Shown in pieces: positions 10,036-61,789 of a stretch of DNA of 64,000 bases. Origin of the DNA: Cystobasidiopsis lactophilus. Taxonomy: Eukaryota > Basidiomycota > Agaricostilbomycetes > Agaricostilbales > Chionosphaeraceae. The notes under the pieces were generated by a model, which worked only from the letters and a program-made list of their open reading frames with translations, made no database searches and was not told the DNA's origin. Each line of letters begins with the position of its first letter. The first letter of the stretch is position 1. The DNA lies in NCBI GenBank assembly GCA_001599975.1, contig BCIO01000005.1:124001-188000 (forward strand), given 5' to 3'. A program made the position numbers and the translations under genes.

Positions 10036-10212
10036 TTATCTTTTCGATATTTCTCGATCCCTCATGGAGCATACCGTACTGCCTCGCGAGGCTTTGAGTC
10101 ACAAAGTGGAGCTGTATTGTTTTGAAGCCTGTCACACCAGCTGTGAAACCTGGCGTTGTTTTGAATGCCCCATTTCTTTCGCCTGCCACCACCGCCTTGT
10201 ACTTGGGTCATC

Positions 10213-13200
10213 ATGCGACGCGCAGCACAGGGGACGAAGCGGCCAGCGTCGACGTCGCAAGACTTGGGCGGCGGCGAGCAGCGCCAGGCCAAGAAGGCGT
10301 CGCAGCCAGCCTCCAACTCGAGCCGGGCCATCCAAGTGTTTGTGCGCTCGCGCCTGGCGAACGACGGCTTGGTGCGAGTGCCGCCCATAAAGGGAAGCGA
10401 AGTGCTCGTGGTCAGCAACAGCAATGGCCACAGCTCGGCACAGCAGGCCGCATTGCTGGGCCCCGGTTTGGACGCGGGCGGCGGGTCAGCCGAGAGCAGC
10501 AAGGCCTACTCGTTCGACGGCTGCTTCGGTCCTCAGGCCGATCAAAGCTTGGTCTTCAACGACGTGGTTGCGCCGATGCTCGAGGACTTGTTGGGCGGCT
10601 ACAATTGCACAGGTGCGTTGGCCTTCTGATGCCTCACTGTCATGGTCTGACGTAAACCGTCGCTGCGCAGTCCTGGCTTATGGCCTCACTGGCACTGGCA
10701 AGACGCACACCATGATTGGCGACCTCACCCCTCAGCTGAACAACTACGGCCCGAAAGCCGGCATCGTCCCGCGCGTGCTCTACAAGCTCTTCCACCTGCT
10801 CGAGCAGTCCGCCACCGAATACTCCGTCAAAGTGTCCTTTATCGAGCTCTACAACGAAACCCTGGTCGACCTCAACCCGCTCGGCAGCCAAAAGCCAGAG
10901 CTCAAGATCTTTGACGATGCCACCAAGAAGGGCGTCGTCATCCAGGGCGCTCACGAGACCTTGATCGCCTCACCGCAAGAAGGCATCGATGTCCTCACGC
11001 GCGGCGACCAAAGGCGGCAGGTGGCGGCCACCAAGTGCAACGACCGCTCCTCCCGCTCCCACTCCATCTTCCAGCTCACCGTCCACCTCAAGGAAGTCGC
11101 TTCCCTCTCTGGCTCCACCACTTCCTCCACCTCCTCTGGCACTGCTTCTAAAGGCTCGACGGAAGACTTGCTTAAAGTGGGCAAGATCACGCTGGTGGAC
11201 CTGGCCGGCTCGGAGAACATTGGTCGGTCGGGCGCCAAGGACTCCCGCGCCCGCGAGGCCGGCATGATCAACCAGTCCCTGCTCTCCTTGGGAAGGGTCA
11301 TCAACGCTCTGGTCGTCGATGGCAAGACGGCTCACGTGCCTTATCGGTGCGGCCCCATCTTGCGCAAGAATGGTGTCATTTGTTGACTTTTTTTGAATGA
11401 CCACAGGGAGTCCAAGCTGACTCGCATCCTGCAAGACTCGCTAGGTGGTTCGACTAGGACGGCCATCATTGCGACCATCGCGCCCGACTATTCCAACTGG
11501 GAAGAAACTCTGTACGTGGCGTTTGCCAGCCCCTGTCTCTGTCGACATTCACCCAAATTCTAATTCCTCATCTACCCCCTGAATCTTTTTACAGTTCAAC
11601 GTTGGACTACGCCCTTCGAGCCCGTTCCATCCAAAATAGGCCCGTCTCCAACGCGCGCATGACCCGAACGGCCTTGATCAACTCGTACGCCGGGGAAATC
11701 GAGCGCCTCAAGGTCGACCTTGTCGCTGCCCGCGAGAAGAACGGCATCTACCTCTCGGACGCCTCGTGGACCAACTTCCAAGCGGAGCACGAAGCCCGGA
11801 GATTAGGCTTGGAGGAGTCCACCAAGCAGGTCGACTTGCTCGAGATGATGCACCGGACCATCTCCGAGCAGTTCGAGCACTCTTTGTCGCTATTAGGCGT
11901 CAAGGAAGGGGAGATTGCGGGGCTGGACGAGGAGAGGCAGATGCTAGGCGCTCAGCTCCAGAGCGCGCAGGAAGACTTGCAGGGGCAAAAGGCCAAGCTG
12001 GAGGAGGAGACCGCCCGGCGTCAGGCCTTGGCTCAGGGCAAAAAGGAGTGGAAGGACTGGGCTGGGAAGGCGATCCGGGACACCCAAGGTTTGAGGGAGA
12101 AGATTGGTCCGTTTCATCTTCGCTTTGACTTTAAGGTTGGAAGCTGATGCTGTGATTACAGCACGCAAAACGGCGGTTGAATCCTCCAACTCTTCGACCA
12201 TTGCTCAAGCGTCGAGAGCGATGGGGGTCAGCACCAGCTCTTTGGCTACTTGCCTCTCCGACTTTGAGGCGGCACAAGCCCAATTCTGCTCCCACCTCTC
12301 GACTGCGCTCGACGCTTTTGGGACTCAAGCCATCGATATGCATCTCGAAAACCAAAAGCTCATCACTCAACACTTGGAGGCGCTCACCTCGAGGGCAACT
12401 TCGGCAAAGGGCCAGCAGGGCGATGTCGATTCCGCCGCTCAGGACCTGATGGCCACCGTAGCCAGCTCGACAGAACGCCTTGTGGATCTACTTCATTCCT
12501 CGACTGCTCAGATCCAGCAGTCCCACCGCCAAACGAAGGCCTCCCTCGTGGCCCAGTTCAACCTCTCCAGCAACGCGGCGATCGAAGTCTTCCGCAAGCT
12601 TTCTGAACAGGCCAACGCCATCGAATTGAAAGCACAAGCGGACGACGAGGCGTTCCAGCGCGCTGTCCAGGCACAATTGGCCAGCGAGCGAGAAGCCATG
12701 GCCGCGGAAAATCAAAGGTTGGCCGAGCACAATCGACACCTGCAAGCCCTGCTAGACAATCAAGCGGCCTCAGCACAGCAGTTCTCGGCACAGTTCGTGT
12801 CCAATATGCAGGCCCAGCTATCGACTTTCTTCCAAACCCACTCAGCAACGCTGCAAGAGTCGGCAACCCCACTACAAGCTCAGCTGGTGGAAGCGTGCGA
12901 GGCCAGAGCGCAGGCTACGCAAGCAAGAGAGGAGAGCTTGAGAGCGTTGGCGTCGCAGCACGAGACGGTGGTGGAGCATTACCGGCAAGGCTTGGAGGAC
13001 GTGCAGGATGTGGCGGTGGACCAGATCAAGGTTTGTCCGCATCTTCCCTTGGTTGTGAGCAAGCACTGATGATCGAACGACTGCTAGGTCATCCAAGCTG
13101 GCCAACTTGCGGTCGAGGTTCTCGGGGAAGATTGCACGATGGACGACCACCTCTTCGCGCTGACCCAAGGCGCTGAAGACCTGGCGACCGAAGTGGCGGC

Positions 13201-13768
13201 CGAGGTCCGACAGTCATCCTCCGCTTTTACGTCAGGTCTGTACGCCGAACGGTCCTCCACCGATTCCTCCCTAGCGGACACCCGCACGGTCCTCCAAGGC
13301 ATCCACCACTCGCTCGCCCAATCCTCCGAAATGTTATCCAACTCTTCCGCTCCTCTTTCGCAGCAGTTTCAAGCGTTTCAGTCTAACAGCTCGCGCTACT
13401 TGTCGCTAAGCAAGACATCACTAGCTCAGCTCAACCAGCACACTTCCACCTTCCTCTCTCACCACCGCGACCAAGGCGGCTTGCTTCTTGAAGACGCACC
13501 GACTGGCCACACTCCACGTAAGCGACAGTGGCCATCATTCGATGAACCCGAGCCGCCATCGCCGACTCCGACTGCGCCGCCACCGGTCGCCCCTGCGCCT
13601 CCAGTCCAGCTCGACAAGGCGCTGCGCAAGTCAACGAGCGCTTCATTACGCAAGTCGGCTGCCCAAAGCAATGCACAGCCGGCCTTCAAGGTGCTCAGCG
13701 ATAAAGCGAACGTTTTGAGTGCGGTGGCGCGGCACGATTTGGGCAAGGCTAAGGCACTCGCGTCATGA
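10213..13768 (+). CDS. Kinesin-5 (BimC/Eg5-type) mitotic motor
   Basis: Plus-end-directed tetrameric motor that slides spindle microtubules apart in mitosis. The motor domain begins near residue 38 ('[10 protein letters not shown]'). Visible hallmarks: P-loop '[12 protein letters not shown]', switch I 'NDRSSRSH', switch II '[14 protein letters not shown]' (the kinesin-5 signature), then '[20 protein letters not shown]' and '[20 protein letters not shown]'. A long coiled-coil stalk follows. The tail carries a BimC box, '[15 protein letters not shown]', whose TP site is the known Cdk1 target for spindle targeting. The P-loop has Leu where nearly all kinesins have Gln (GQTGTGKT). Introns at about 10613-10670, 11346-11406, 11512-11594, 12107-12162 and 13032-13088. 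Its 3' third is duplicated downstream as decayed fragments at 15838-16605 and 18700-18838. The gene itself reads through without defects. Confidence 0.93.
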
Positions 13769-14003
13769 TATTTCGTTCTTTGAGATTCTCGTTCATTTAT
13801 CTCCTTGTACATGCTCACATAGGCCCAGCTTGGGCTCTTTGTATTCGGATTTCGGATTGCGATGTGATCTCTTGCCGACAAGTCTCGACAGTTCTAAATT
13901 ATAAGGAAGGCAATGTTCTAACTGCAAGCCAGCTGCTCTATTGGCGAACACGACGTGGAAATCGGCCACGAATGGCAAACGGTGCAAACGACAACTCCTA
14001 GCC
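13769..14003. other. 3' region of kinesin-5
   Basis: Short 3' flank. It resembles the flanks at 16606-16840 and 18839-19043 (shared 'tgca..ccagctgc' and following bases), as part of the triplicated segment. The intergenic space continues beyond it with fragments described separately. Confidence 0.5.
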
Positions 14004-14276
14004 TCAAGCGGGCTGGGAAGGGTGATTTAGGGGCCACTTGCGAGCCGCTTCCGCATTCATATCACAGCACTTCTTGCACAGGACAAGGTTGGGGTATTGG
14101 AGGTGAATGTTGCGCGAAACGCCACACCTAATGGAACTTAGAACCGACGGAAGGATGGGGACCTGGCTTGACGTACTGTTTGCACAAGGGAAGCTTGACG
14201 TACTGTCTGAACAAGGGAAGTCGACGTGTTGGCCGAGGTGTAGGAGCCCTGCAACAGGCGTGGGAATCAGCGCCAA
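14004..14276 (-). pseudogene. Fragment of Cys-rich gene, copy 1
   Basis: Minus-strand remnant related to the Cys-rich gene at 19044-19502. The clear part is 'CGVSRNIHLQYPNLVLCKKC', aligning with 'CGCQPHNNSKHRLCAQC' of the fuller copy and 'CGIFPHNGQQDDRCEQC' of copy 2. The upstream CxxC exon is not recognisable here. The frame also contains the 27-bp duplicated stretch at 14166-14219. Called a fragment because no complete partner exon is visible; a shortened working gene cannot be excluded. Confidence 0.5.
14166..14219. repeat. 27-bp tandem repeat, two copies
   Basis: Two head-to-tail copies of a 27-bp unit beginning gcttgacgtactgt, at 14166-14192 and 14193-14219, differing at two positions. 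Length is a multiple of three and it falls within the Cys-rich fragment copy 1 on the minus strand, where it codes a repeated Phe-Pro-Cys-(Ser/Ala) stretch. Confidence 0.85.
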
Positions 14277-14699
14277 AAGTTCTTCGGGCGGTCAGGTCAC
14301 GAATGCTTTACGTAGCTGGGCAGAGGAGTCTGCGCGCTCCAAATGAACTAAATACGCAGGCAGAAATCAGGTCAGCTCTAGAGATACACGCACTGGGCTA
14401 GACCTGCTTCAGGCTTGGGCTGCCCAAGTGGGGACTGTGGAGCGGCCGCTCGTTCTGGCTGCGGGCTGTGGACACGCGCTGCATCAACTGCAGGGTCCGA
14501 CGTTTCGTGGGGTAAGGAGACGGCTTGCGCAGCTGAGGCTTTCCTGCGCGCGGAATCTGAGTATCTTCTCACAGTACAGATGAAGGGTTACGCCTACTTC
14601 CACTGGTCTTCCCAGGCCTTCATCTTTTCCATTCCCTTAGCACGACCATCTCGCACCGCGAGGAGATCCAGAGCGGAGTAATCTTTCGGGGGTTGTTGG

Positions 14700-15062
14700 T
14701 CAGGCATCGACAGAGGCGTTTTGGATCACGGGCTTGAGAAAAGAGGAGGGCAAAAGGCAGACACCGGTAGTGGGTAAATGAACTGGGTCGTGGTCGAAGT
14801 CCAGCTGGGGGAGAACCAGGTTTCGTCTCAAAGAGGGCGGTGCATCTTGCACCAGACGCTGCAGAACCCTGGAGTACCCGGATTCAGATGGTCCGAACAT
14901 GCTGGGGAAGTTAGTCGCAGAGGCAATCTGAAATGAGGATCGAAGGGTAGTTCGAAGCGAAAGACGCAAAAGGCATTGGCGAAAGAATGGCACGACAGCA
15001 AATTCTATACTTTCACCCCAGGCCTTTCTTTCACGTTCGATACCCGAGAAGACCCGACACAA
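14700..15062 (-). CDS. Unrecognised open frame of 120 codons
   Basis: Open on the minus strand with a Met start at 15062 and a later Met near 14900 ('MFGPSESGYSRVLQRLVQDA'). The C-terminal part ('VHLPTTGVCLLPSSFLKPVI') has plausible protein composition, but I do not recognise it and no second copy was seen in units 2 or 3 of the surrounding triplication. It may be a chance frame in decaying DNA. Confidence 0.2.
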   Translation of the reverse strand: MCRVFSGIERERKAWGESIEFAVVPFFRQCLLRLSLRTTLRSSFQIASATNFPSMFGPSESGYSRVLQRLVQDAPPSLRRNLVLPQLDFDHDPVHLPTTGVCLLPSSFLKPVIQNASVDA

Positions 15063-15482
15063 AGAAGGCAGGCATTACAAATCTGCCTGCCACCAACTCC
15101 AGCCTCGTGTGCCGGGAATGTCATGTTGGCGGGAGTCCGCAGTAGAGAGAGGCAGAGAGGTTCGAACGTCGAAGCCATGCGTCAACGCAGGCTGGTAGGG
15201 CTCTTGACAAGAGGTCTCTGACTTTAGAAGTACCATTAGACTTCGATTTGACAGGGATTACAGCCAACAGGCGAAAGTCGGCAGTGGCGTGAGGACGATT
15301 CTGGCTCGCAATTTAGCGGGCGCCAGTGAGCCAAATCGAGGTCAGAGCATTCACGAGTCATTCGAGGCAAGAGCTACATGTCAAAGACACCAAAACCAAA
15401 CAACCAGCATTCAGGACTCGAAGCTCGAAGGTGCTCGACGCACTCCAAGAGGCAAAGTCCTCTCCGTATGCAACGACCAAAT

Positions 15483-15540
15483 GTCTGAGCAGCGGCTTAG
15501 CGGCTGATCGAGACGTCTATCTGAAGGGGGTGGACTGATT
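15483..15540 (+). pseudogene. Vestige of eIF3k 5' coding end, copy 1
   Basis: About 55 bp still matching the first codons of eIF3k (20213-20265): 'tctgagcagcgg', then 'gatcgagacg' and 'gggtggac'. It has indels, no start codon and no downstream exon. It marks the right end of unit 1 of the triplicated segment. Confidence 0.6.
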
Positions 15541-15837
15541 CCAGCAAGCAGACGTGGCGCTCTTATAGGACTGCTCACCTTCAAGCTCGACTTGGAGGCC
15601 AACTTCGAACTGATGCCTCGGCTTCGTCTGCCTCCGGTCCCTTGCCTCTGCTGCGCTTGGTGTCTTGACTTGGATTGATTCTTTGCTTCTGTGGCTATCT
15701 GTTCCTGCGCTGGCTGGAGTTTGTGGCGACTGGGGGAGCTGTCGATTGGCGTCGAGGTTCGTTTGACTCCTTTGGCCTTTTCCGTCTGGGCTGTTGGCTC
15801 ACGAGTCGTGCAATACATTCACGCTGTACATGATATA

Positions 15838-16605
15838 TTGGCGTCGCTGCACGAGACGGTGGTCGAGCATTATCGGCTAGGCTTGGCGTACTTGCAGGAT
15901 GTCGCAGTAGGCCAGATCAAGGTTAGCCCGCTTTTTCCGTTGTTTGCATCGAGCCCTGATTATCGAACGACTATAAGTCATCCAAGTTGGCCAGCTCGCG
16001 GTCGAATTCTGGGAGAAGATGGCACGATGGACGGCACCTCTTCGGGCTCACCCAAGCCGCTGAAGATCCGACAAGCGAAGTGGCGGGCCGAGGTCCGACA
16101 GCCATGCTCCTCTCTTACTTCGGGTCTGGATGCCGAGCGGCCCGCCACCGAGGCCTCCCTAGCGGACATCCGAACCGCCCTTCCAGGCATCCACCACTCG
16201 CTCGCCCAGTCCTCCGAAATGTTATCCAACTCTTCCGCTCCTCTTTCGCAACAGTTTCAAGCGATTCAGTCTAACAGCTCGCGCTACTTTTCGCAAAGCA
16301 AGACATCACTACATCACCTCGACCAGCACACCTCCACCTTCCTCTCTCACCACCGCGACCACGGCGGCTTGCTTCTTGAAGACGCACCGACTGGCCACAC
16401 TCCACGTAAGCGACAGTGGCCATCATTCGATGAACCCGAGCCGCCGTCGCCGACTCCACCGGCGCCGCCACCGGTCCCCCGGCGCCTTCGATTCTCAGCC
16501 CAGCTCGACAAGGCGCTGCGCAAGTCGACGAGCGCTTCATTACCCAAGTCGGCTGCTCAAGGCAATGCACACCCGGCTTTCAAGGTGCTAAAGCGAACGT
16601 TTTGA
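15838..16605 (+). pseudogene. Partial copy of kinesin-5 tail, copy 2
   Basis: Matches kinesin-5 from the end of the stalk to the stop region. It keeps '[20 protein letters not shown]', the following intron (about 15922-15977), '[20 protein letters not shown]' and the whole BimC box '[15 protein letters not shown]'. It lacks the motor and most of the stalk, and the C-terminus departs from the parent ('FKVLKRTF' then stop). The frame stays open from about 15691 because intron and exon happen to be open together, giving a misleading 304-codon frame. No promoter or start expected for a motor is present. Could be transcribed, but I infer a non-functional fragment. Confidence 0.85.
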
Positions 16606-16846
16606 GTGCGGTGGCGAGGTACGATTTGACCGAGATCAAAGCGCCAGCGTCACGATTCCTCGTATTCAGGTTGGCATTTATCTCCGTATGCATTTTCAAG
16701 ATGCGCCTGCTTGGGACTTTTATACTGGGCTTGCGAGTGACAGCAGTTCTAGGCAAGACGAGGAACGAATGAAATTGCAATTCAGCTGCCGCTCGCAGTC
16801 GAAGCGGAATACATCGGATCGCGTGTAGCCCACCCGGCTACGCTGT

Positions 16847-17134
16847 TCAGCGCTGTGGGTTTGTACCGTAGTAGCGATCGGCACGTTTCCTGTCGTTGTC
16901 GCAGCATTGCTCGCAGCGGTCATCTTGCTGGCCATTGTGGGGGAAAATACCACAGCTAGATGCATCACTGATTTGGCGAATGGACTGCGCACATAAGAGG
17001 CGATTTGACCTACATGTTGCATAAGTGAGGGGCGGCGCGAGGGTGCTGTACGGGCGGCACCGGGACGCTTCAGTGGCGTAAATGCAGGCCGTGAGCGTTA
17101 TTTCTGCCGACGTGGAAGCAATACAAGGACTCAC
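16847..17134 (-). pseudogene. Fragment of Cys-rich gene, copy 2
   Basis: Minus-strand frame whose C-terminal part, 'SDASSCGIFPHNGQQDDRCE' followed by 'QCCDNDRKRADR', aligns with copy 3 ('MDAASRCGCQPHNNSKHRLC', 'AQCYNNVRQAMAN'). The nucleotide match includes the shared 'ctagatgca' and the 'cagcattg' cores. The N-terminal CxxC exon is not recognisable. It lies at the same distance after kinesin copy 2 as copies 1 and 3 lie after theirs. Confidence 0.5.
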
Positions 17135-17959
17135 TACACCGGGATCTTGGAAGGTTTGGACTTCGTCGTTGGGGCCTTTGAGCGTGGCTTGTCGCTGCAG
17201 GGCCAGGCTTTAGCGCGAATGACAGACACGAGGGGAACGGTATTCTCACGCCTTTTCCTTGTTTCCGCCTTGTTCCTTGTTCATTGTTGCCTTGCAGCAC
17301 GGGTTGCAGCGAAGAGATAGCGGAAAGGGACAGACGTTCCCTGCGATGAGCTGAGTGGTGGGAGCAGGTCAAGAAGAAGGGCGCAGGGAGGACTGGAACT
17401 GGACGGGTGGTGTTTCACGTCCAAAGCGAATGTGTAGCTACCCGGGTGTACCCGAACCAAAGTCGTCCGAAGTTTATAGAAGCAAAATCCAAAAAAGGGA
17501 GCTCCCATCACTTTTCCCCCTGGTCCAATGCTTGTCGGACTTCAGAGAAATGGCACCATACTGCATTGTCTGCATTGTCATTATTTGGCATAGCATATAG
17601 AGTTATTCATGAGGGTAGAGACAGTGATTGAATCTTAGGCAGTGCAGTACCCGAGAGTACCCGAGCCAAAGACGACAGGACAAAGGCAAGGCCTGTTTGT
17701 GCAAGGCATGAGGGACTGGTGAGCAGACTGGTGCAGGCATTGGTGCAGGACGCGGTCAAGGACGGCGTCCGGTGGCAAAGTTGACAGAGTTGAACATGGC
17801 AGCATTGGCGCTGTCGAGCCAGGGAGCTCCTTTGCGCTGGCAAGACTGTTTGCGTATGGTAGTCGAAGATCGTGGCAAGAAGCGGAAACAGCCGACAGGA
17901 CAAGAGGTCGACTTTGTGGCAGAAGCCAGAGCGCCGCACAGCCCGGTCAAGGCTGGAGA
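17135..17959. other. Decayed intergenic DNA with ACCCG-type short repeats
   Basis: No gene recognised. It carries acccgggtgtacccgaacca at 17440-17459, exactly repeated at 29717-29736. A looser copy lies at about 17649-17667 (acccgagagtacccgagcca). See findings. Confidence 0.4.
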
Positions 17960-18190
17960 AGTCTCTAGATGGTCGAACAGCCGCAACAATCCTAACAAAC
18001 AGCGGAAGCAAGGCAACCAGCATCGACAACGAGAGACCATGCTCGACCAGCTCCAAGAGCGAAGTTGCCGTCGACAACCAACCCACCCACTAGAAACGGC
18101 GTCTGAGCAGCGGCAGCAGACGCTCATCAAAGGCGTGGACCGATACAGCACGCAGAACGTGTCGCTGCTGGAGGATCGATTACCTGCTCA
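17960..18190 (+). pseudogene. Copy of eIF3k 5' end, copy 2
   Basis: Aligns with 20045-20310, covering eIF3k upstream DNA and its first codons. Shared stretches include 'gagagaccatgctcgacc', 'ctcatcaaaggcgtggacc' and 'cgcagaacgtgtcgctgctg'. The ATG of eIF3k is lost here (aacggcgtctgagcag in place of aaatggcctccgagcag) and the match fades after the codons for 'NVSLLED'. Inferred non-functional remnant of a tandem duplication. Confidence 0.8.
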
Positions 18191-18699
18191 AAGGCCAATC
18201 GTTCCAAGGGCTGGTCGACCCGAGCGGCTGCGCGTCTGAGACCTTACTTCTGCTGCGCTTGTTTGCTTTGGTCGTGCTCTTCGACTCTGTGGCTATCTGA
18301 CCCTGTTAGGATGGGCTCTAGCTGGGGTTGCGACGGGTCCAAAATTGACGTTTCGCTCAGTACAAGGTGCGCTCGAGTCTTTCTCTCCTCTACATTGGCG
18401 CTGGTTGGCCTCAGGGCTTAAGTAACAACAACAGACATGCTGATGTTAGCGGTTTAATATTGCGTGCGGCCCGAAAAGTCTCCACGGCAGCCCGACTACA
18501 GCTTACTCCCTCTCTCCTGACCCGTCCTTCTCTCGTCTGTTCCGCCCCCGAATGACTCTCTCGCGACGATATTTTCGAGATGTAGATTCGACTCGTGTAC
18601 GGCACTTAGCTCGAGTGTAAGCCTCGTCTCAGTTTCGTCGCGCGCCGCCACCCGCTCCAGTGTCCCCGGTCCAACTATGAACCCCATAGCGATACGCAA

Positions 18700-18838
18700 T
18701 ACAGTGGGCGGTGCTTTGCGCAAGATGGCTGCTCAAATCAATGCGCAATCGGCCTTCAAGATGCTCAACTATAGGGCTGACTGGTTGAGGGCACGGTGGC
18801 GAGGCAAGACTTGGGCATGGCCAAGGCTCTCTCGCTCT
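18700..18838 (+). pseudogene. C-terminal fragment of kinesin-5, copy 3
   Basis: About 130 bp aligning with the last codons of kinesin-5: 'LRKMAAQINAQSAFKMLN' against '[18 protein letters not shown]' of the parent, followed by matches through the former stop region (ggtggcgaggcaagacttgggcatggcc). The BimC box is gone. It is the most eroded of the kinesin copies. Confidence 0.75.
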
Positions 18839-19043
18839 GAATGTTTACTTACATGGAGTGGCCTTTCAGACATCTCGTTGTTGTACAGTATTAGTTGGTC
18901 TTTGAAGTTTGAAATGTTGTCCATGATATGACGGCTTTCATTCTTGATTGCAGTCCAGCTGCCCAACAGAACGGCACAACAAACACGAAACTTGTATAAT
19001 GACGGGCCACATCTATAGACGGGATGCAGTCTCTGGATGCTCT

Positions 19044-19502
19044 TTAAACATTTGTCTTTCCATAGGTCGAGGGCATGTTAGCCATCGCTTGTCGAACGTT
19101 GTTGTAGCATTGGGCACAAAGACGGTGCTTTGAATTGTTGTGAGGTTGACATCCACACCTAGATGCAGCATCCATGAACGACAGGACATAGTGAAGGAAG
19201 CCTTGCTCCGACGCACATATCGCACAGATGGCTCGCCATGACAGGCCTCGTTACGACGTCGACGTTCTGACGCCTAATGCAGTTTGATGAGGGCGCGTTT
19301 GGCAAACCGTCCGAGAAGGTAGGACCTACCCTCCATGTGGCTTCTCATCGCCGCATGTGCGACAGTAATTAGTGGTGCCGTAGAAAGCTGGTGCTTGGCG
19401 ACACCTGAATGCAGCAGATGCAGATGAGCCAGGCCGACTGATACAATTGGGCTCGCCGCACCTCGGACATTCGCGATTGGTGATGAGATCTTTGTTAGCC
19501 AT
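19044..19502 (-). CDS. Small Cys-rich, putative zinc-binding protein (fullest of three copies)
   Basis: Not a named family. A start at 19502 opens 'MANKDLITNRECPRCGEPNC' and continues to 'NYCRTCGDEKPHGG', two CxxC pairs like a zinc ribbon. A splice donor follows (gtaggt at about 19326), and a second exon reads 'CAICASEQGF', then 'CGCQPHNNSKHRLCAQCY', ending at a stop at 19044-19046. The Cys spacing suggests two zinc sites. The exact splice phase between the exons is unresolved: the best-looking acceptors do not give the preferred frame without adjustment. Two shorter relatives lie at 14004-14276 and 16847-17134. Between kinesin-5 and eIF3k this was probably the ancestral middle gene. Confidence 0.45.
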
Positions 19503-20207
19503 CCTGCAGGGTCCAAAAAATCTCGCGAACACGAAGGACCGCCGAAATTCGAGGTCTAGGGTCGACGGGGGGAAGCAAAAAGCCAAGGAACGACTTTCCA
19601 TCTCAGGCGGGCGGTGCAAAATGTGCCAGACCGGCGAAAAATCCGAGCCTTCAACCCCCTTGCAGAGAGCCAGTTGCCAAGAAGTCGTCAGAATGGCAAG
19701 ACACTAAGTACAAAGGGAAGGCGACTTGGAAAGGCGACCAGGGCATTACTCTGCCAGTATTCCAACATCGTAGATATATAGGAATTCAAAGGCAGGTGCA
19801 GGGAGGAAGACGAGTTGGTCAATGGTGCCTGTGGGCACGACGGCTTTCGAAATGGAACGAGCACGAAGGCGGTGCAAACGCCAGAGTACGGGAGGTTTAC
19901 TGTGGATAACCGTGGCTTGAATAAGGTGTCAGACTGACCAGCAAAACTCGCATAGGCAAAGACTTTGGGAGCGGCAATGGTCTGGCAGTGCGGCAGTGGC
20001 ACCGAGGCGTAAAATCAAACCCAGACCAGACGAGAGCATTGGTGGGCAACGAGCAGTTTAGAGCAGCCATGCGGACACGCAAGCGCAACAAAGCAGGGCG
20101 ACCAGCATCCAAAACGAGAGACCATGCTCGACCGGCTCCAAGAGCATCTTTGCCACCTGCAACCAACAAATCCCGCACGCACGCACGCACCAACAGAATC
20201 ACCAAAA

Positions 20208-21386
20208 ATGGCCTCCGAGCAGCGGCCGCAAGAGATCGAGACGCTCATCAAAGGCGTGGACCGGTACAACACGCAGAACGTGTCGCTGCTGGAGGATTAC
20301 CTGCTCGAGCGGCAGGTGCAGCGGGACGAGTACGATTTGCTGGCCAACCTCGCCATCCTCAAGCTGTCAGTGCCTCTTGCTGCTCTCTGTGTGCCTTTGT
20401 CTGTGCTCTACGCGTGTGATGAACGACAATTATCGACACATTTAAGGAAGCCACTGCGCTCTTGACTTCAAAAATACCAAAATTTATTAGCTCTATCTGA
20501 TGCCTCTGTTTCCACTGCCCTGCCTGCCTTGGGTGACCAGCAATGCTGACTGCTACTGCCCACACACAGATATCAGTTCAACCCAGACCTCGTGCCGGAC
20601 CCGACCTTGCCAGAGAACGCGGACCGGCCGTTCACCATCTTTTTGATCCTCCTCAAGGCCCTCGCCCACAGCCCGTTCGCCAGCGACTTTAGCTTGGGCC
20701 TGGCCATGCTGTCTGACCAGATGGTTCGTTGCTTGTCCTCGTGTAGCCCTTCAAAGTTGCTGTGGCTGATGCTATTTCCAACGAGCAGTCACCGCTCTTC
20801 TCCTCGCCCGCCGTCCTGTCTGGCTACGTCGCCTTGCAAGAGCTGTCCGCTTTGCTGCTATCCCGGAAATTCACAGACGTTTGGCAAAAGGTGCGCCCTG
20901 GTCCTTTACCCTCCTCGACGTCTGAGCACACCACTGACTCCGTCCGTTCGTTGGGATTGGTGTCACAGGTCGAGGCGCTCAAGACGACGGACGCGCCGCT
21001 CCAAAAAGCTTACCTCTCCGTGCCCGGCTTCAACAGCACCCTGCGCCACTCCATCGCCGAGCAGGCCATTCGCCCCATCTTCACCACCATCACCCTGCAG
21101 CGCCTCCAGACCTGGCTCGGCTTCCCCTCCGCCTCGGAACTGGACGTCTTCCTGTCCGAGGAGCTCGGCTGGAAGGTCGAGGACGACTCGGCCTTGGTGC
21201 CGCCGGTGGACGAGGAGGAGGTCGTCTCCAGTGAGCCGGCCGCCAAGGTGGCCCTGGTCGACGTCGAAAGTCGGTGCTGCTCGCTCTCCACATGCTTCTG
21301 TCGTGACTCATGTCTCTTTCTTCGTCACCTTGACAGAACTGGGCAAGATGCTCAAGCAGACGGTGCAAGTGCCGGTGTCCGCTTGA
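20208..21386 (+). CDS. Translation initiation factor eIF3 subunit k
   Basis: Non-core subunit of the eIF3 complex, which assembles the 43S pre-initiation complex in the cytoplasm. The start 'MASEQRPQEIETLIKGVDRY' and the next exon join 'LANLAILKL' to 'YQFNPDL' match the family pattern (LEANLAVLKLYQFNP). Later parts 'LILLKALAHSPFASDFSLGL', 'FTDVWQKV' and 'IRPIFTTITLQRLQTWLGF' correspond to the HAM and winged-helix (PCI/CSN8-like) region; the C-terminal 'ELGKMLKQTVQVPVSA' ends at 21384-21386. Introns at about 20366-20569, 20723-20760, 20889-20968 and 21268-21335. An ACGC microsatellite (20176-20191) lies just upstream of the ATG. Its 5' end is present as decayed copies at 17960-18190 and 15483-15540. 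Confidence 0.92.
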
Positions 21387-26296: not shown

Positions 26297-27206
26297 TGTA
26301 TTTTTAGGATGTTAGAACTGATTAAAACGCGAGAAAGAAAGGATCAAAGTTAAGTTGTAAAGGAGTGTATAGAGGGCAGAGGGCCGAAAGAGATGAGAAA
26401 GGCGAAAGGACTGATGGAGCTGAAAGGTGGTGGAGACTGCTGGAGCAAGAGAGCGAAAGCCCATCTTCGCCAAAATGTTGCGGGTGCAGACTACTACTGA
26501 CGAACGTGCGCTTTGCTACCTAGAAAATAACAAGAAGTCGCCCTATAGCCGAGGTTAGGCAGAATTCATTACGAGGCGCGTTCGGAGGGTTTGGAGCGTG
26601 GCAGCCGCGACCGAAGTGATCGGACGCGTCTGCCCTATGAATCTATGAATAGCCAGGCTGGGAGCATTGCCAGGCGACTGGCATCAAGGCCAAGGGATGA
26701 CGCTAGAGATAGGGTGCAAGCGAGGGAGAGAGCTTGAGCGTATTGACGAGAGGGCGACGCGCAACACAAATATGTGGGTGTAGAGTCTCTAAGACGCCTG
26801 ATCGCTCAGTAAGAGCATTGAAGGAGATGGGTTGAGAGGCGCGTGGGTTGAGATGGAGAGGCTTAGCGCTGGGATGAATGCAGATGTGGGCGGTGAGGCA
26901 AGTTAGAGCGAGCATGCTGGCAGCCAGCGTCTTCGTCTAGAGGCGGTGCGGTATCCGAGCATGCTCCAGCTAAAGGACACAGAGAGCCATCCCCATCGCA
27001 CCCAAGCAGTGCTCGGACGCAACAAAGCTAGGGCATTGGGCGGTGGCGAACCTTTGTCGCATCGGAGCTGACGAGGGGAGCAATTCTCTGCCTTCGCGGG
27101 CGCAGACGGCAATAAACAGTAAGCAGGCAGCTTTCACAGAGGAGCAGTTGTAACAGCCAGCGAAGCAGATGATTTGGCCTTGGGTCTTGGCGCTCCTCTC
27201 TGGCCC
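26297..27206. other. Intergenic region upstream of the phytase-like gene
   Basis: No gene recognised. It contains the phytase-like promoter and pyrimidine/purine-rich stretches (about 26330-26480). Similarity to the upstream side of the PMP3-like gene begins only at about 27184. Confidence 0.4.
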
Positions 27207-27621
27207 GGTTTCAGCCTCCCCTCGCTCGGGCGGCAGACGCAGGCGGGCGAGGGCGGATGTGGGCAGCCGCGTTCCTCAGCATTGAGGCAGTGTAAGTGAC
27301 GACTCCATAGGCCAAGTCACGAGCAGAGGTCAAAGTCCGAGGTCGAGAGATCGCTTCTTGCTCCGGAACCGAATCGAGCGAGGTTGCGCCAGAATGAGTG
27401 GTCGCGGGCCCCGAGCGCCCAGTACGTTGCTTGTGACTCCTGAAGCATTGAATACAGGATGCTGAATCGTGCTCGATGAGTGCAGAGGTGAAGCGGCACC
27501 ATGTAGGCTTCACTGCCCCGTGCCCATCTATTCCGGCGCAGCTGACCGCCATATTGCCAGGGTTTCCAATTCTTGATCTTCATTTGTGGCATGTTGCTGC
27601 CCCCGTTGGCCGTCGCCGTCC
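27207..27621. repeat. 415-bp perfect direct repeat, copy 1
   Basis: By eye identical to 29973-30387 over its whole length, at an offset of 2766 bp. Imperfect similarity extends about 20 bp further left. The copy ends abruptly inside the second coding exon of the PMP3-like gene. Confidence 0.93.
27476..27621 (+). pseudogene. Truncated head of PMP3-like gene
   Basis: Carries the start codon, first coding exon, first intron and the first part of exon 2 ('FLIFICGMLLPPLAVAV') of the gene at 30242-31184, then breaks off into unrelated sequence at 27622. Everything encoding the second membrane helix and the tail is absent. With its full upstream region included it could still be transcribed. Inferred non-functional. 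Confidence 0.8.
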
Positions 27622-28927
27622 AAGATGAAAGCGAGGGAGAGATCTCGAGCGTGTTCAGATTTTGGCTCGACGAACAATTGATACACGACAAAAGGCATTA
27701 GACACCCAAGGCTTGAAGATGCCGGGCTGAGTGAGAGTATATTATGAAAGGGATGGCTCGAGGCGGATTGCAGTGCGGTGGCGAGGCTCCATGTTGGGGC
27801 GACTGACGGCAAGCGGTGGGAAGCGCATATGATCGCTGAAGCGCACCGGTCTCTGAAAGCTGCTGGGAAAATCATTGATTCACCTTGTGCCCTTCCAGAA
27901 ACGGTAGCAGACCAAATGGAGGTGCTGGCGACCAACAGATGAAAGGAATTCGCCACATCATTGGTGGAGTGGACTTTTGCGCCAGTGACCTCTTGGGCTC
28001 CAGGAAACAGAAGAGACGGATTCTTCAAAGCCGTCGTAAAGACAGAGGAAACTCCGGCGCTAATGAGACCGAGTGGCGAAGTTGAATGCCACATCCGAAC
28101 GTGAAAGCGAAGCGAGCTTGGGCTGCAAAAAAGTGCTTCCACAATGTCTCCCGCACAAGACTACTTTATGCGGATCACCAGAGTAGCATCTTCAAGTCGA
28201 GCCGGCCAAATTCCTGCTGCTCGTCGGCCCTCTCGTTCATCGAGCAGTTTTGAGCCGACCCTCAATAAAGGCAAGGCGGTTTCTTCGCCCAGTCCAGAAT
28301 TCTTCAGCGCACACACCAAGTCTTGAACAAGTCAGCGAGCCGGACTTCTAGCAATGTCGCGGCGGCAGTCCAGGCGAGCATCATGATAAATTCTTTCGCC
28401 TCGCTGGCCACCGCGCCTGCAAGTGGAGTGGCGGTTCAATCACCCATGCTCAATTAGTGCGTTCATTGAAGTGTGCACTGTTTCAACGAATTATGGGACC
28501 CGTCGCTTTCCCCAAAAGCCGGAAGCAGGTCCTAGTGAGAACTGAGAAGTGGAGAACAATCGTCACAATGCAGGCGCAGGCTAGCCACATACGGCAGATG
28601 GCAGATTTAGCGAGGTATGGCGCAGAGGAAACAAGTAGTTTGGAGCACGGATCATAGCTGATCAAGCAGTGAGACCTCACAAGAAGGCTCCCATGGCGGC
28701 AGCTACCCCCACCGCTTCGTGGCAGGCGCATCCCTCACCGCACTGCGGTGCTCCATGCCTAAATGCATGTCGTTAGACTGGGGAGGGGGCTGTTCTGAAG
28801 ATACGCTCACAACACGCAAGCTGGAGGTGTTTTAGGAGTCGGAAAATAGTGGCGAACGGGACTGCCACTAATACGAGCATGCCATGTACGATCAGAATAC
28901 CACGTGGCTTGACAGTGGTGACGTGAC

Positions 28928-29119
28928 TCACATGCCGGCTTGTGGCGGAGGACGGTGGTTGCTTTGCTCCAGTGCTTCAGTGCCGACCTTGCTCTCCCGC
29001 GCCTTGACCAATGCGATAGCGCGCTCGCCTCGTCTGATGGCAGCGTCTGCGTTCTTGATTGCCTGGTTGTAGTTATGTTGCGCAAGGGCAGCCAAAGAAG
29101 TCGGCCTGTCCATGAGCAA
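28928..29119 (-). CDS. Small unrecognised protein, related to its upstream neighbour
   Basis: Short frame with 'LAQHNYNQAIKNADAAIRRG' and 'ERAIALVKAR', an Ala-rich helical segment. It resembles the frame at 29180-29371 ('LSDADYKCALQENDAVIKLG', 'DTAVAAAKNR'). A splice donor directly follows the end of the upstream frame, but I could not find a junction joining the two in one frame. Either two tandem small genes or two exons of one gene. Confidence 0.3.
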   Translation of the reverse strand: MLMDRPTSLAALAQHNYNQAIKNADAAIRRGERAIALVKARESKVGTEALEQSNHRPPPQAGM

Positions 29120-29179
29120 AAGCTGCTAGTTCAGCCAGTCTTCGAGCAGCATGCGAAACCCGCTCGGGGTGAAAAGGTC

Positions 29180-29500
29180 TTACAAGTGCGACGGGCGAGG
29201 TGGACTAGGAACAGGAGTCCTGGTGGCGCCTCGATTAGGCATGCCGCCTTGCGGGTGACGCTGGCGATTCTTGGCTGCAGCGACGGCAGTATCCCCTAAT
29301 TTGATGACTGCGTCGTTCTCTTGCAAGGCGCACTTGTAGTCAGCATCTGACAGCGGCTTGTCCTTGGCCATCCAGGCGAAATCGTGGAAGATGGTCGCTG
29401 GTTCCTCAGAAGAGAGCAGGGGAGAGCCACCAACAACCGTCAGTCCTGGCAACGCTTTGTACAAAGGGCTTGCAAGACCCGGTAGCACCCGAAAGCCCAA
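29180..29500 (-). CDS. Small unrecognised protein, related to its downstream neighbour
   Basis: Frame from Met at 29500, or more likely Met at 29371 ('MAKDKPLSDADYKCALQEND'), to a stop at 29180-29182. The helical stretch is similar to that at 28928-29119. The C-terminal part is Pro/Arg-rich. No family recognised, no signal peptide at the 29371 start. Confidence 0.3.
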   Translation of the reverse strand: MGFRVLPGLASPLYKALPGLTVVGGSPLLSSEEPATIFHDFAWMAKDKPLSDADYKCALQENDAVIKLGDTAVAAAKNRQRHPQGGMPNRGATRTPVPSPPRPSHL

Positions 29501-29972
29501 AGTGTTCAGAAGCCGTCAGGGTAAAGAGAGCAAGAGGACAAAGGGACTGCCTGTCTCGATTCTAACAGACGAAAAGTGCAGTTTAATGGGTGGTTGTAGT
29601 CTTTTGGAAACACCTCTTTATGGTAATGGCGACGGGAGCCCAGTCAGGGCGGAAACCACCAGAGAATGGATGGCGACAAGCCCACGTCCGGCAGTCAAGT
29701 CCAAAGGCGGTGCAGGACCCGGGTGTACCCGAACCAGAGAAAACCTCAGTTCATTCCCATGGCGGCCAGACAGGAGACAAGCCAAAGTAGTTGAGCGCAC
29801 TGGGCGGTGGCGAGCGCTCTCGCCTCCGGATTAACTGGGCCAGCAAACCTCTGGCCTGGTCTGCGCGAGCGAATACAGGCCATTCAGCGCCATCTTGTAC
29901 AGCGAAACAGTCCCCAGCCAGACCAGCAAAGCAGCCGATGTCGCATTCGGTCTTGGCGCTCCTCTCGAGCCG

Positions 29973-30387
29973 GGTTTCAGCCTCCCCTCGCTCGGGCGGC
30001 AGACGCAGGCGGGCGAGGGCGGATGTGGGCAGCCGCGTTCCTCAGCATTGAGGCAGTGTAAGTGACGACTCCATAGGCCAAGTCACGAGCAGAGGTCAAA
30101 GTCCGAGGTCGAGAGATCGCTTCTTGCTCCGGAACCGAATCGAGCGAGGTTGCGCCAGAATGAGTGGTCGCGGGCCCCGAGCGCCCAGTACGTTGCTTGT
30201 GACTCCTGAAGCATTGAATACAGGATGCTGAATCGTGCTCGATGAGTGCAGAGGTGAAGCGGCACCATGTAGGCTTCACTGCCCCGTGCCCATCTATTCC
30301 GGCGCAGCTGACCGCCATATTGCCAGGGTTTCCAATTCTTGATCTTCATTTGTGGCATGTTGCTGCCCCCGTTGGCCGTCGCCGTCC
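29973..30387. repeat. 415-bp perfect direct repeat, copy 2
   Basis: Second copy of 27207-27621. It contains the upstream region, first coding exon, first intron and part of exon 2 of the intact PMP3-like gene, so this is probably the source copy. Confidence 0.93.
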
Positions 30388-59277: not shown

Positions 59278-60311
59278 TAGTCAAACTCGAGCCAGGAGAT
59301 GCGAACCTTGGTGCGGCCCCGGTTTGCTGCCTGGCCAAGGGAGGCATACTAGAACTCAAGACTGCATGCCACGTGCAGACTCGATCTTGCAAGACTTGGC
59401 ACTCGTAGGAGCAAGAGCTTTCAGCGAGAGCAAGCGTGAGCGTTCAGCCCCATGCCAAAACTTGAAACCCAAGGCTAATGAGGACTCGAAGACATCAACC
59501 AGTCCAAATGGCTCTTCAAATCGCGTTCGGTCCGTTCTCTCTCTTCAATGAGCCGTTCATGACTAACGTGGTTCCTCGCGCACACGCAATCAGCTGGAAG
59601 AATACCGGGGACCCTGGCTGGGCACTTTCACCTTCTTGCTCTCCCAATTCCTGCAGCACGGCTCGGTGTACATCTTGGACAACCGGCAAGGCTTCATCGT
59701 CTGCCATGCACCTGGGAACACTGCTCCTCCGCCCTCTGTTGACCGCGTGGCCGCTCTACCTTGGTTCCGCGAGATGGACTCGGAGCAACTCGCTGGCTTT
59801 GCAAAGGTTCTTCTAGCTCCCTCGAATCTTGGAGACGTTGTGCTCAGATAGTTACTGCTCAAAGTTGATGGCGAAGTCCAAAGAGGTGTACGACGAACTG
59901 TACGGCGATGGACATGCGTACGGGGCCGAGCGGTTCAACGTACCGTTCGTGGCTGTCTCCCCGGAGATGCAGGGCCAAGGCTACGGCAAGATGTTGCTGG
60001 GCAAGGTTTGCGGCTTGGTTGGCTCTCCTTCTGGCTTCAGAAAAGGGTTTGGTGAACTAATTTGGAGGACGACAGGCGGACGAGTAAGGCGTGGAAGTCC
60101 TGCTCTCCACCGCGACAGCCGCAAATGTAAGCTTCGTCTCTTAAACTGACCTCTTGCCTTGTCTTTACAAGCCATTGCGGTACAGCGCGATTTTTACAGC
60201 AAGCACTTCAACTTCAAAGTCTCGGCCCAGTCAGAGGTGGAGGCCGACGGGATGGGCCAGCTTTCCACCTGGTTCATGGCCCGGCAGCCGCTGTCACCGG
60301 TTTCGGCTTGA
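59278..60311 (+). CDS. GNAT-type acetyltransferase, tandem copy 1
   Basis: Predicted acetyl-CoA-dependent acetyltransferase. Multi-exon: 'MPKVVKLEPGDANL', 'RADSILQDLALVGARAFSES', 'DINQSKWLFKSRS', 'LEEYRGPWLGTFTFLLSQFL', 'VYILDNRQGFIVCHAPG', 'LPWFREMDSEQLAGFAK', 'SKEVYDELYGDGHAYG', 'NVPFVAVSPEMQGQGYGKML' (acetyl-CoA loop Q-G-Q-G-Y-G), 'EVLLSTATAANV' and 'RDFYSKHFNFKVSAQSEVEA', with stop at 60309-60311. The RDFYxKxxFK ending is the normal last GNAT motif. Every intron restores a frame shared with copy 2. The gene looks intact. Substrate unknown. Confidence 0.75.
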
Positions 60312-60716: not shown

Positions 60717-61789
60717 ATGCCAAAAATCGTCAAATTGGACCCCAAAGACTCTGAATTGCGTGGGCACTATTGCTTTACGGCACTGTGACAAGCCACGATT
60801 GGAATTGAGGTTGATTTGCGGCCGCGCAGAGGCTATTCTTGGAGGTTTGGTGCAGCTCGCGATCAGAGCTTTCAGCGAGGTGCAGCGTACGCGCTTCCGT
60901 CTTCTCGTGACGGCGAGAAGGCGACAAACAAGAGTTGAAAGAGCCTTTTGAGAGCAGAAATCAACCAGACCAAATGGCTCTTCAAGTCCCGCTCCGTCAG
61001 TCCTTGTCCTTGTCACGATGGTGCCACTCTCACCAGATCGAGATCAACAGTTTGAAGAATGCCCAGAAGCTTGGACCGGGACCTTCTCTTTCCTTTTCGC
61101 CCAAGCCATCCGCTTCGGCTCTATCTGGATGTTGGACAACCGGCAGGGCTTCATCGTCACTTATGCCCCTGGACAAGCTGTCTCCCACGATTCAATGGCG
61201 AAAAGCATGGCGGATCACGAATGGGTTCAGCAGTTGGACTCGCATCAGCTCGCGGGTTTCACTCTAGTGAGTGCTCAAGTTTGTCTCCTTGCCTTGCATT
61301 TGGCTCAAGAGAAGCGCAAAATAGCTGGTGAAACGGAGTCAAGAGAGTTCTGATAGGCTTTATGGGGACGGCCAAGCGCACAAGCTGGCCAACTTCAACG
61401 TGCCGCTGGTGGCAATTGATCCAAATGCGCAAGGCAAAGGGTTCGGGAGCCTGCTGATGAAGCATGTGTGCGACTTAGTGCGCATCCTTGTTCTTCTTCT
61501 CTTCATCTTTGCGTGGGCTGAAGGGGTCGTGACAGGCGGACGAGCAAGGCGTCGAAGTCCTGCTGGCCACCGCTTCACCTCCAGGCGTGAGTTGGTCTGC
61601 CACATCTCTAGATCCTCTTGTTCATTCATAACATGCGAGGATAGCGGGACTTCTACGCTAAGCACTTTGGCTTTCGAATTACGGCTCAGGTGGACTTCGA
61701 AGAGGAGGACCTGGGCAAGCTTCGATCTTGGTCCATGGCTAGACCGACGAAAAGGGCAAGAGAAGGAAAAGGAGGGGAGAGGGGTGTAG
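60717..61789 (+). CDS. GNAT-type acetyltransferase, tandem copy 2
   Basis: Paralogue of copy 1 with the same exon plan: 'MPKIVKLDPKDSEL', 'GRAEAILGGLVQLAIRAFSE', 'RAEINQTKWLFKSRS', 'FEECPEAWTGTFSFLFAQAI', 'IWMLDNRQGFIVTYAPGQAV', 'HEWVQQLDSHQLAGF', 'NVPLVAIDPNAQGKGFGSLL' (loop Q-G-K-G-F-G), 'ADEQGVEVLLATAS', 'RDFYAKHFGFRITAQVDFEE' and a Lys/Arg-rich tail with stop 61787-61789. About half of residues agree with copy 1 by eye. Intact. Substrate unknown. Confidence 0.75.

Follow-up and report, generated by a model that had tools for sequence, protein, structure and literature searches.

Introduction

Tandem duplications that take no account of gene borders are a known class of rearrangement (PMC5460883), in which breakpoints lying inside genes give rise to gene fragments and chimeric structures. 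Ectopic gene conversion is a second well-described process; closely spaced paralogs convert more often than others (reviewed in PMC3449122), and conversion leaves patchy identity, as has been seen in yeast polymorphism data (PMC2515631). The present study concerns a locus in the basidiomycete Cystobasidiopsis lactophilus in which both processes may have acted. It lies in contig BCIO01000005.1 of assembly GCA_001599975.1 (22.1 Mb, 8 contigs), within positions 124,001 to 188,000 of the forward strand, and in its genes and short introns the DNA looks fungal. This stretch of 64,000 nucleotides is referred to as the window, and coordinates are those of the window unless preceded by C5. At the locus, an intact kinesin-5 gene and an intact eIF3k-like gene stand at opposite ends of three tandem units that contain truncated copies of both. 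The data presented below make it probable that the array is single and old, and that gene conversion later passed sequence between each intact gene and the fragment closest to it.

The locus resembles the duplications described in PMC5460883 in its gene-internal breakpoints and in the fragments and chimeric structures that these produce. Those duplications, however, were found among strains of one species, some with altered expression, whereas here the junctions are old, no open fusion frame was seen, and there are three units. The patchy identity is that of converting paralogs (PMC3449122, PMC2515631), but here an intact gene is paired with truncated fragments of itself, and two genes show this in mirror image, one at each end of the array. 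Both conversion and gene-internal tandem duplication are thus already known, and it is the mirror-image arrangement that makes this locus an attractive example. No description of the locus, or of such an arrangement in fungi, was found among the titles and abstract openings retrieved from the open-licence literature, which is not proof of absence.

Organization of the array

The three units are all in direct orientation and have the order K-C1-e1, k2-C2-e2 and k3-C3-E, where K and E are the intact kinesin-5 and eIF3k-like genes, k2 and k3 are fragments of the kinesin tail, e1 and e2 are copies of the eIF3k head, and C1 to C3 are the spacers, each named for a cysteine-rich (Cys-rich) frame on the minus strand. 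From the kinesin stop to the eIF3k start, or between their counterparts, there are 1717 bp in unit 1, 1441 bp in unit 2 and 1371 bp in unit 3. The copies are adjacent and alike in order and strand, as in a tandem duplication, and the homology begins and ends inside genes with the outer genes whole, as with gene-internal breakpoints.

K (10165..13768, plus strand; the position of its 5′ start is approximate) matches Pfam Kinesin (1.4e-59), and its top relatives in PDB are kinesin-5, cut7 and KIF11/Eg5 (E values of 6.9e-71 to 1.6e-57). Its last intron is at 13031-13087 and its last exon at 13088-13768. E (20124..21386, plus strand; start ATG at 20124 or 20209) matches Pfam CSN8_PSD8_EIF3K (PF10075), with E values of 7.1e-08 for the unspliced frame and 1.9e-10 for the hand-spliced protein. 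Kinesin-5 and eIF3k are generally regarded as essential, and a duplication that spares a whole copy of each would be expected to be harmless.

Self BLAST and alignment place the duplicated kinesin tail and its 3′ flank at 12947..13834 (plus strand). The left breakpoint is sharp: homology begins at 12947/15838, within a kinesin exon, and the segment 12700-12946 finds no match in the sequence preceding 15838 (scores as high were obtained at 962 of 1000 random places). On the other side, eIF3k homology extends across exon 1 and into intron 1, ending near 20412; the match of the intron part, 20378-20412, to e2 is reached at 5 of 1000 random places. Since the breakpoints lie inside a kinesin exon and eIF3k intron 1, the outer genes remain whole, which is the expected product of the known class of tandem duplication that ignores gene borders. 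An earlier note on this DNA, made from the sequence alone, had proposed a tandem duplication starting within the kinesin gene and ending within eIF3k. The extent of homology, from 12947 to about 20412, bears this out, together with the note's three direct units, their matching internal spacing, the retained kinesin intron described below, and the intact genes at the left and right ends.

Kinesin and eIF3k fragments

The fragment k2 (15838..16715, plus strand) retains the kinesin intron. K 12947-13769 and k2 15838-16656 are identical at 715/811 positions, a score that none of 200 dinucleotide shuffles reaches. Eight small gaps, some of them frame-shifting, separate k2 from K up to the stop. In the intron, 42 of 55 aligned sites are identical, and the splice acceptor is changed in the k2 sequence. 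The fragment k3 (18642..18834, plus strand) corresponds to the last ~190 bp of the tail; it is identical to K 13574-13762 at 139/186 positions (0/200 shuffles). The first ~600 bp of the third tail copy could not be detected, shuffles reaching the observed score in 101/200 cases against K and 67/200 against k2.

On the eIF3k side, E 20063-20412 aligns with e1 (15356..15687, plus strand) at 213/310 identical positions and with e2 (17983..18283, plus strand) at 235/291, with 0/200 shuffles reaching either score. The similarities that the earlier note had named, of 15838-16605 and 18700-18838 to the kinesin tail and of 17960-18190 to 20045-20310, are therefore real. The ninth codon counted from the e1 ATG is a stop. 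In e2, ACG stands in place of the 20209 ATG; an upstream in-frame ATG at 18039 is kept, and the frame from it stops at 18239, short of k3. Inspection of the sequence revealed no open eIF3k-kinesin fusion frame at either e1 or e2.

The open reading frame of k2 itself deserves comment, in that it could indicate preservation by selection, for instance because it encodes a tail peptide whose expression is driven from the e1 side. The frame at 15679-16605 spans 308 codons between stops, the 220 aligned k2 codons hold no in-frame stop, and the pairwise dN/dS is 0.45. That ratio, however, is near the value of at least 0.5 expected, by reasoning, if K alone were constrained. Neutral runs (n=2000) also left the frame open, in 17% of cases with 50 changes, 30% with 35 and 9% with 70. 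The frame-shifting gaps and the altered splice acceptor do not suit a preserved peptide, and silent positions are unchanged along with the rest in an 83-bp run identical to K, which suits copying. Preservation of k2 by selection is accordingly very improbable, and we take k2 to be a dead fragment.

The Cys-rich frames fared unevenly. The frame of C2 (16830..17030, minus strand) resembles that of C3 strongly, 0 of 1000 random places reaching the score, and C3 contains Cys-rich open frames (19030..19502, minus strand) for which a gene model is tentative. The frame of C1 (13990..14190, minus strand) is a weak relic; its similarity to C2 is reached at 10/1000 random places, and its similarity to C3, at 292/1000, is unsupported when taken alone. 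A Cys-rich frame in each unit, as the earlier note had it, thus stands firmly for C2 and C3 and weakly for C1, and no intact Cys-rich gene model could be built in any of the three units.

Junction sequences were compared between the units. Between e1 and k2 lies a stretch (15688..15837, plus strand) of which the first ~115 bp are common with the continuation of e2 (18284..18413, plus strand), and this shared sequence lies past the homology detected in eIF3k. Over 15680-15801/18278-18413, 84 of 118 positions are identical, which no random place among 1000 reaches. The ~115 bp that e1 and e2 share, undetected in eIF3k, make a single origin of the junction, followed by copying, probable. The earlier note's suggestion that the duplication occurred twice afresh is unlikely on this evidence.

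Divergence of the fragments and probable gene conversion

If fragment divergence reflected the age of each unit, the two halves of a junction, which were born together, should be equally diverged. They are not. At the first junction, k2 differs from K at 96/808 sites (0.12) and e1 from E at 59/188 (0.31, over 20091-20306); at the second, e2 differs from E at 22/180 (0.12) and k3 from K at 47/186 (0.25). Decay increases rightward for kinesin and leftward for eIF3k, and at each junction the younger half is the one next to its own intact parent. The same order is found when the fragments are compared within one stretch of the parent: over the last 190 bp of kinesin, k2 and k3 differ from K at 21/180 and 47/186 sites, and over the eIF3k coding head, e2 and e1 differ from E at 6/89 and 21/87. 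The single gradient of decay described in the earlier note is in fact two, running in opposite directions, and its use of that gradient as a measure of relative age is not supported by the sequences compared here, since two halves of one junction differ in divergence.

Two independent tandem duplications of different ages with near-identical breakpoints, the decay of each fragment simply reflecting its age and no conversion being involved, would account for the order and spacing of the units. They would not account for the disagreement in age between the halves of each junction, for the sequence that e1 and e2 share and that was not detected in eIF3k, or for spacers that have diverged far beyond the younger fragments (see below). 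We consider this explanation improbable.

Hypermutation of the type known as repeat-induced point mutation was considered as a cause of the uneven decay and rejected on the K-k2 pair. The changes between K and k2 comprise 53 transitions and 56 transversions (C>T 13, T>C 14, G>A 13, A>G 13), with no excess of C-to-T or G-to-A in this pair.

The distribution of the differences is informative. K and k2 contain a patch of high identity at 13299..13726 (plus strand), with 24/420 differences inside and 85/447 outside. The patch is bounded on both sides within the older duplication (scan statistic, 0/500 permutations reach it); it covers a tail motif that is presumably the kinesin-5 BimC box. To the right of the patch (13727-13790), K, k2 and k3 are roughly equidistant (13, 13 and 7 sites). 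At 13574-13726, k2 alone differs at 10 sites and K alone at 3, as would suit a decaying fragment, a count that does not fix the direction of transfer.

A comparable change is seen in eIF3k, where e2 is nearer to E until the equivalent of 20303 and nearer to e1 after it. Up to 20303, 54 sites unite E with e2, 14 unite e1 with e2 and 8 unite E with e1; at 20304-20412 the corresponding numbers are 16, 37 and 12. The change of sister relations near 20304 has a Fisher p of 5e-8 (54/14 vs 16/37).

Divergence of the spacers

The spacers provide a further measure of the age of the units. Local alignment scores are 48 for C1-C2, 40 for C2-C3 and 43 for C1-C3. For comparison, C1 was mutated in simulation by 24% (two indel rates, 20 runs each); the yardstick of 24% corresponds to the 13/55 differing sites of the kinesin intron, for which both sides were free to drift. 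The simulated spacers gave local scores of 1002-1434, far above those observed. Spacers so strongly diverged cannot be as young as the fragments that differ by 12%; the units are therefore old, and k2 and e2, younger than the units that host them, were reset after the duplication.

It is also conceivable that unit 2 (k2-C2-e2) as a whole is young and entered an old junction, separating its halves, through unequal crossing over with a haplotype lacking the array. The equal divergence of k2 and e2 (0.12) would follow from this, as would the mosaic nature of e2, with its E-like and e1-like parts. On that view C2 would be expected to be a recent copy of C1 or of C3, yet its scores of 48 and 40 compare with 1002-1434 in the simulations of C1 at 24%, and the bounding of the K-k2 patch on both sides also speaks against it. 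This origin of unit 2 is unlikely.

Genome searches were performed with the kinesin tail, the first 58 residues of the Cys-rich frame (C3), the segment 19290-20410, the PMP3 stretch described below, the C1 spacer, the eIF3k head and the e1-k2 stretch. No further copies were found beyond the query sites, apart from k2 with the kinesin tail and e2 with the eIF3k head; C2 itself was not a query, and the searches, which missed k3 and e1, are blind near 70% identity. The 58 residues of C3 found only their own site, and the e1-k2 stretch (15688..15837) found only itself in a search that also missed the e2 copy and so lacks the sensitivity to show absence elsewhere. The identical stretch at the PMP3 locus could in principle be a misjoin, but no sign of an assembly artefact was seen in the kinesin/eIF3k array: the array copies are 12-31% different, and the C1 spacer and 19290-20410 each occur once in full in the genome. 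Such an artefact is scarcely credible.

Proposed origin of the array

The probable history, one old array modified by conversion, would have begun with an ancestral block of kinesin-5 (plus), Cys-rich gene (minus) and eIF3k (plus). Tandem duplication between a breakpoint in the kinesin tail exon (12947) and another in eIF3k intron 1 (about 20412) would yield one eIF3k-head/kinesin-tail junction and leave each gene whole at the outer ends. Unequal exchange among the units would copy this junction, giving three units, whose inner fragments and spacers would then decay during a long period. Later, ectopic gene conversion of K with k2 and of E with e2 would reset k2 and e2, with the distant k3 and e1 escaping. 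In this scheme, the ancestral order, the copying step, transfer from intact gene to fragment, and conversion rather than another form of exchange are inferred from the pattern.

Several observations weigh against this history or weaken its support. The ancestral order is deduced without an outgroup. The change of sister relations in eIF3k depends on a part right of 20304 that is a low-identity MAFFT alignment; for K, k2 and k3 the equivalent change has a p of only 0.02; and the E-e2 patch is weak on its own, 15/500 permutations reaching it. The e1/e2 shared stretch becomes marginal (23/1000) when trimmed to start at 15708, and the right side of the copied junction cannot be compared, as the kinesin start is missing from k3. 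With respect to the spacers, the 24% yardstick rests on only 55 intron sites, and even simulations at 45% gave scores of 70-226, above those observed. Residual weak similarity was found for four of eight spacer pieces (reached at 1-5/1000 random places), the other four giving 26-277/1000. Insertions or other scrambling are likely, besides age, to have shaped the spacers.

The locus serves as a warning that fragment divergence in tandem arrays is not a reliable clock, because a copy that adjoins an intact gene can be reset. Its two genes and two junctions, with gradients that oppose each other, allow conversion to be separated from duplication age at this locus alone. A broader proposal is that truncated fragments beside essential genes form a lasting system of nearest-neighbour exchange, the two ends of the array mirroring each other. 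This is quite unlikely. If true, dead fragments would remain available as templates, and changes could return from them to the kinesin-5 tail and the eIF3k start; the PMP3-like locus, ~6 kb further, would then be a recent example of such exchange.

A second locus and other repeats

The PMP3-like locus consists of two units on the plus strand. The left (26715..27621) is a copy of the upstream flank and of what is probably exon 1 of a PMP3-like gene, truncated at 27621; the right (27626..30387) runs into the gene. The left copy ends at the counterpart of 30387, inside what appears by eye to be the first coding exon, and a Pfam Pmp3 match (1.2e-07, hand-spliced protein) lies just downstream of 30387, so that the exon assignment is putative. 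Over 27209-27620 none of 412 columns differs from the partner, whereas the collinear flank differs at 91/311 (29%); this tract, like the K-k2 patch, is reached in 0/500 permutations. The right unit holds ~1.8 kb (27806-29625) that the left lacks. Judged by its sequence, the locus appears to show an earlier stage of the same process, following a recent event. With a second and apparently recent case so near, the region could be used to measure how conversion between gene and fragment falls with distance.

The frequency of such patches was estimated in 264 kb of contig C5, which contains 51 self-similar pairs at an E value of 1e-4 or better. Of these, 31 have a length of 60 bp or more and a separation below 15 kb, and 26 of the 31 are direct (manual row count). 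The patch scan was applied to 11 of the 26, for the most part selected on score; the PMP3 pair was extended to the left. Three gave 0/200 permutations: K-k2, PMP3, and C5:345775-346023 with C5:347522-347771. The other eight gave 4, 9, 15, 18, 45, 53, 159 and 186 of 200. Among the 11 pairs scanned, the strongest patches, with log-likelihood gains of 85.6 and 18.4, belong to the two loci described here, the next being 11.5.

Sequence is also shared between the two loci. The C2 spacer (17415-17477) and the PMP3 upstream flank (29695-29754) are identical at 48/59 positions, which 0/1000 random places reach. Without mismatch, GGGTGTACCCGAACC occurs in the 22.1 Mb only at these two places, and the pattern GGCGGTGCAN{2,32}TACCCG only at 14836 (stretch 14836-14880) and 29706. 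A 15-mer of the shared motif, with one mismatch allowed, was no commoner than its backwards control (3 vs 3). The similarity may represent a shared promoter element or another exchange.

Searches for other elements were negative within their scope: no small RNA in 9-32 kb matched Rfam at the gathering score, ARAGORN found no tRNA in the window, and the kinesin motor had no match in plasmids.

Three further repeats were recorded. The direct pair C5:345775-346023/347522-347771, outside the window, has a sharp patch with 3/84 differences inside and 43/165 outside. Also outside the window, C5:358015-363510 contains a cluster of several direct copies ~1.5 and 3.1 kb apart with 65-78% identity, probably a tandem gene family. 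Inside the window, 59490-59715 and 60956-61172 form a weak direct pair, with 66% identity over 233 aligned columns.

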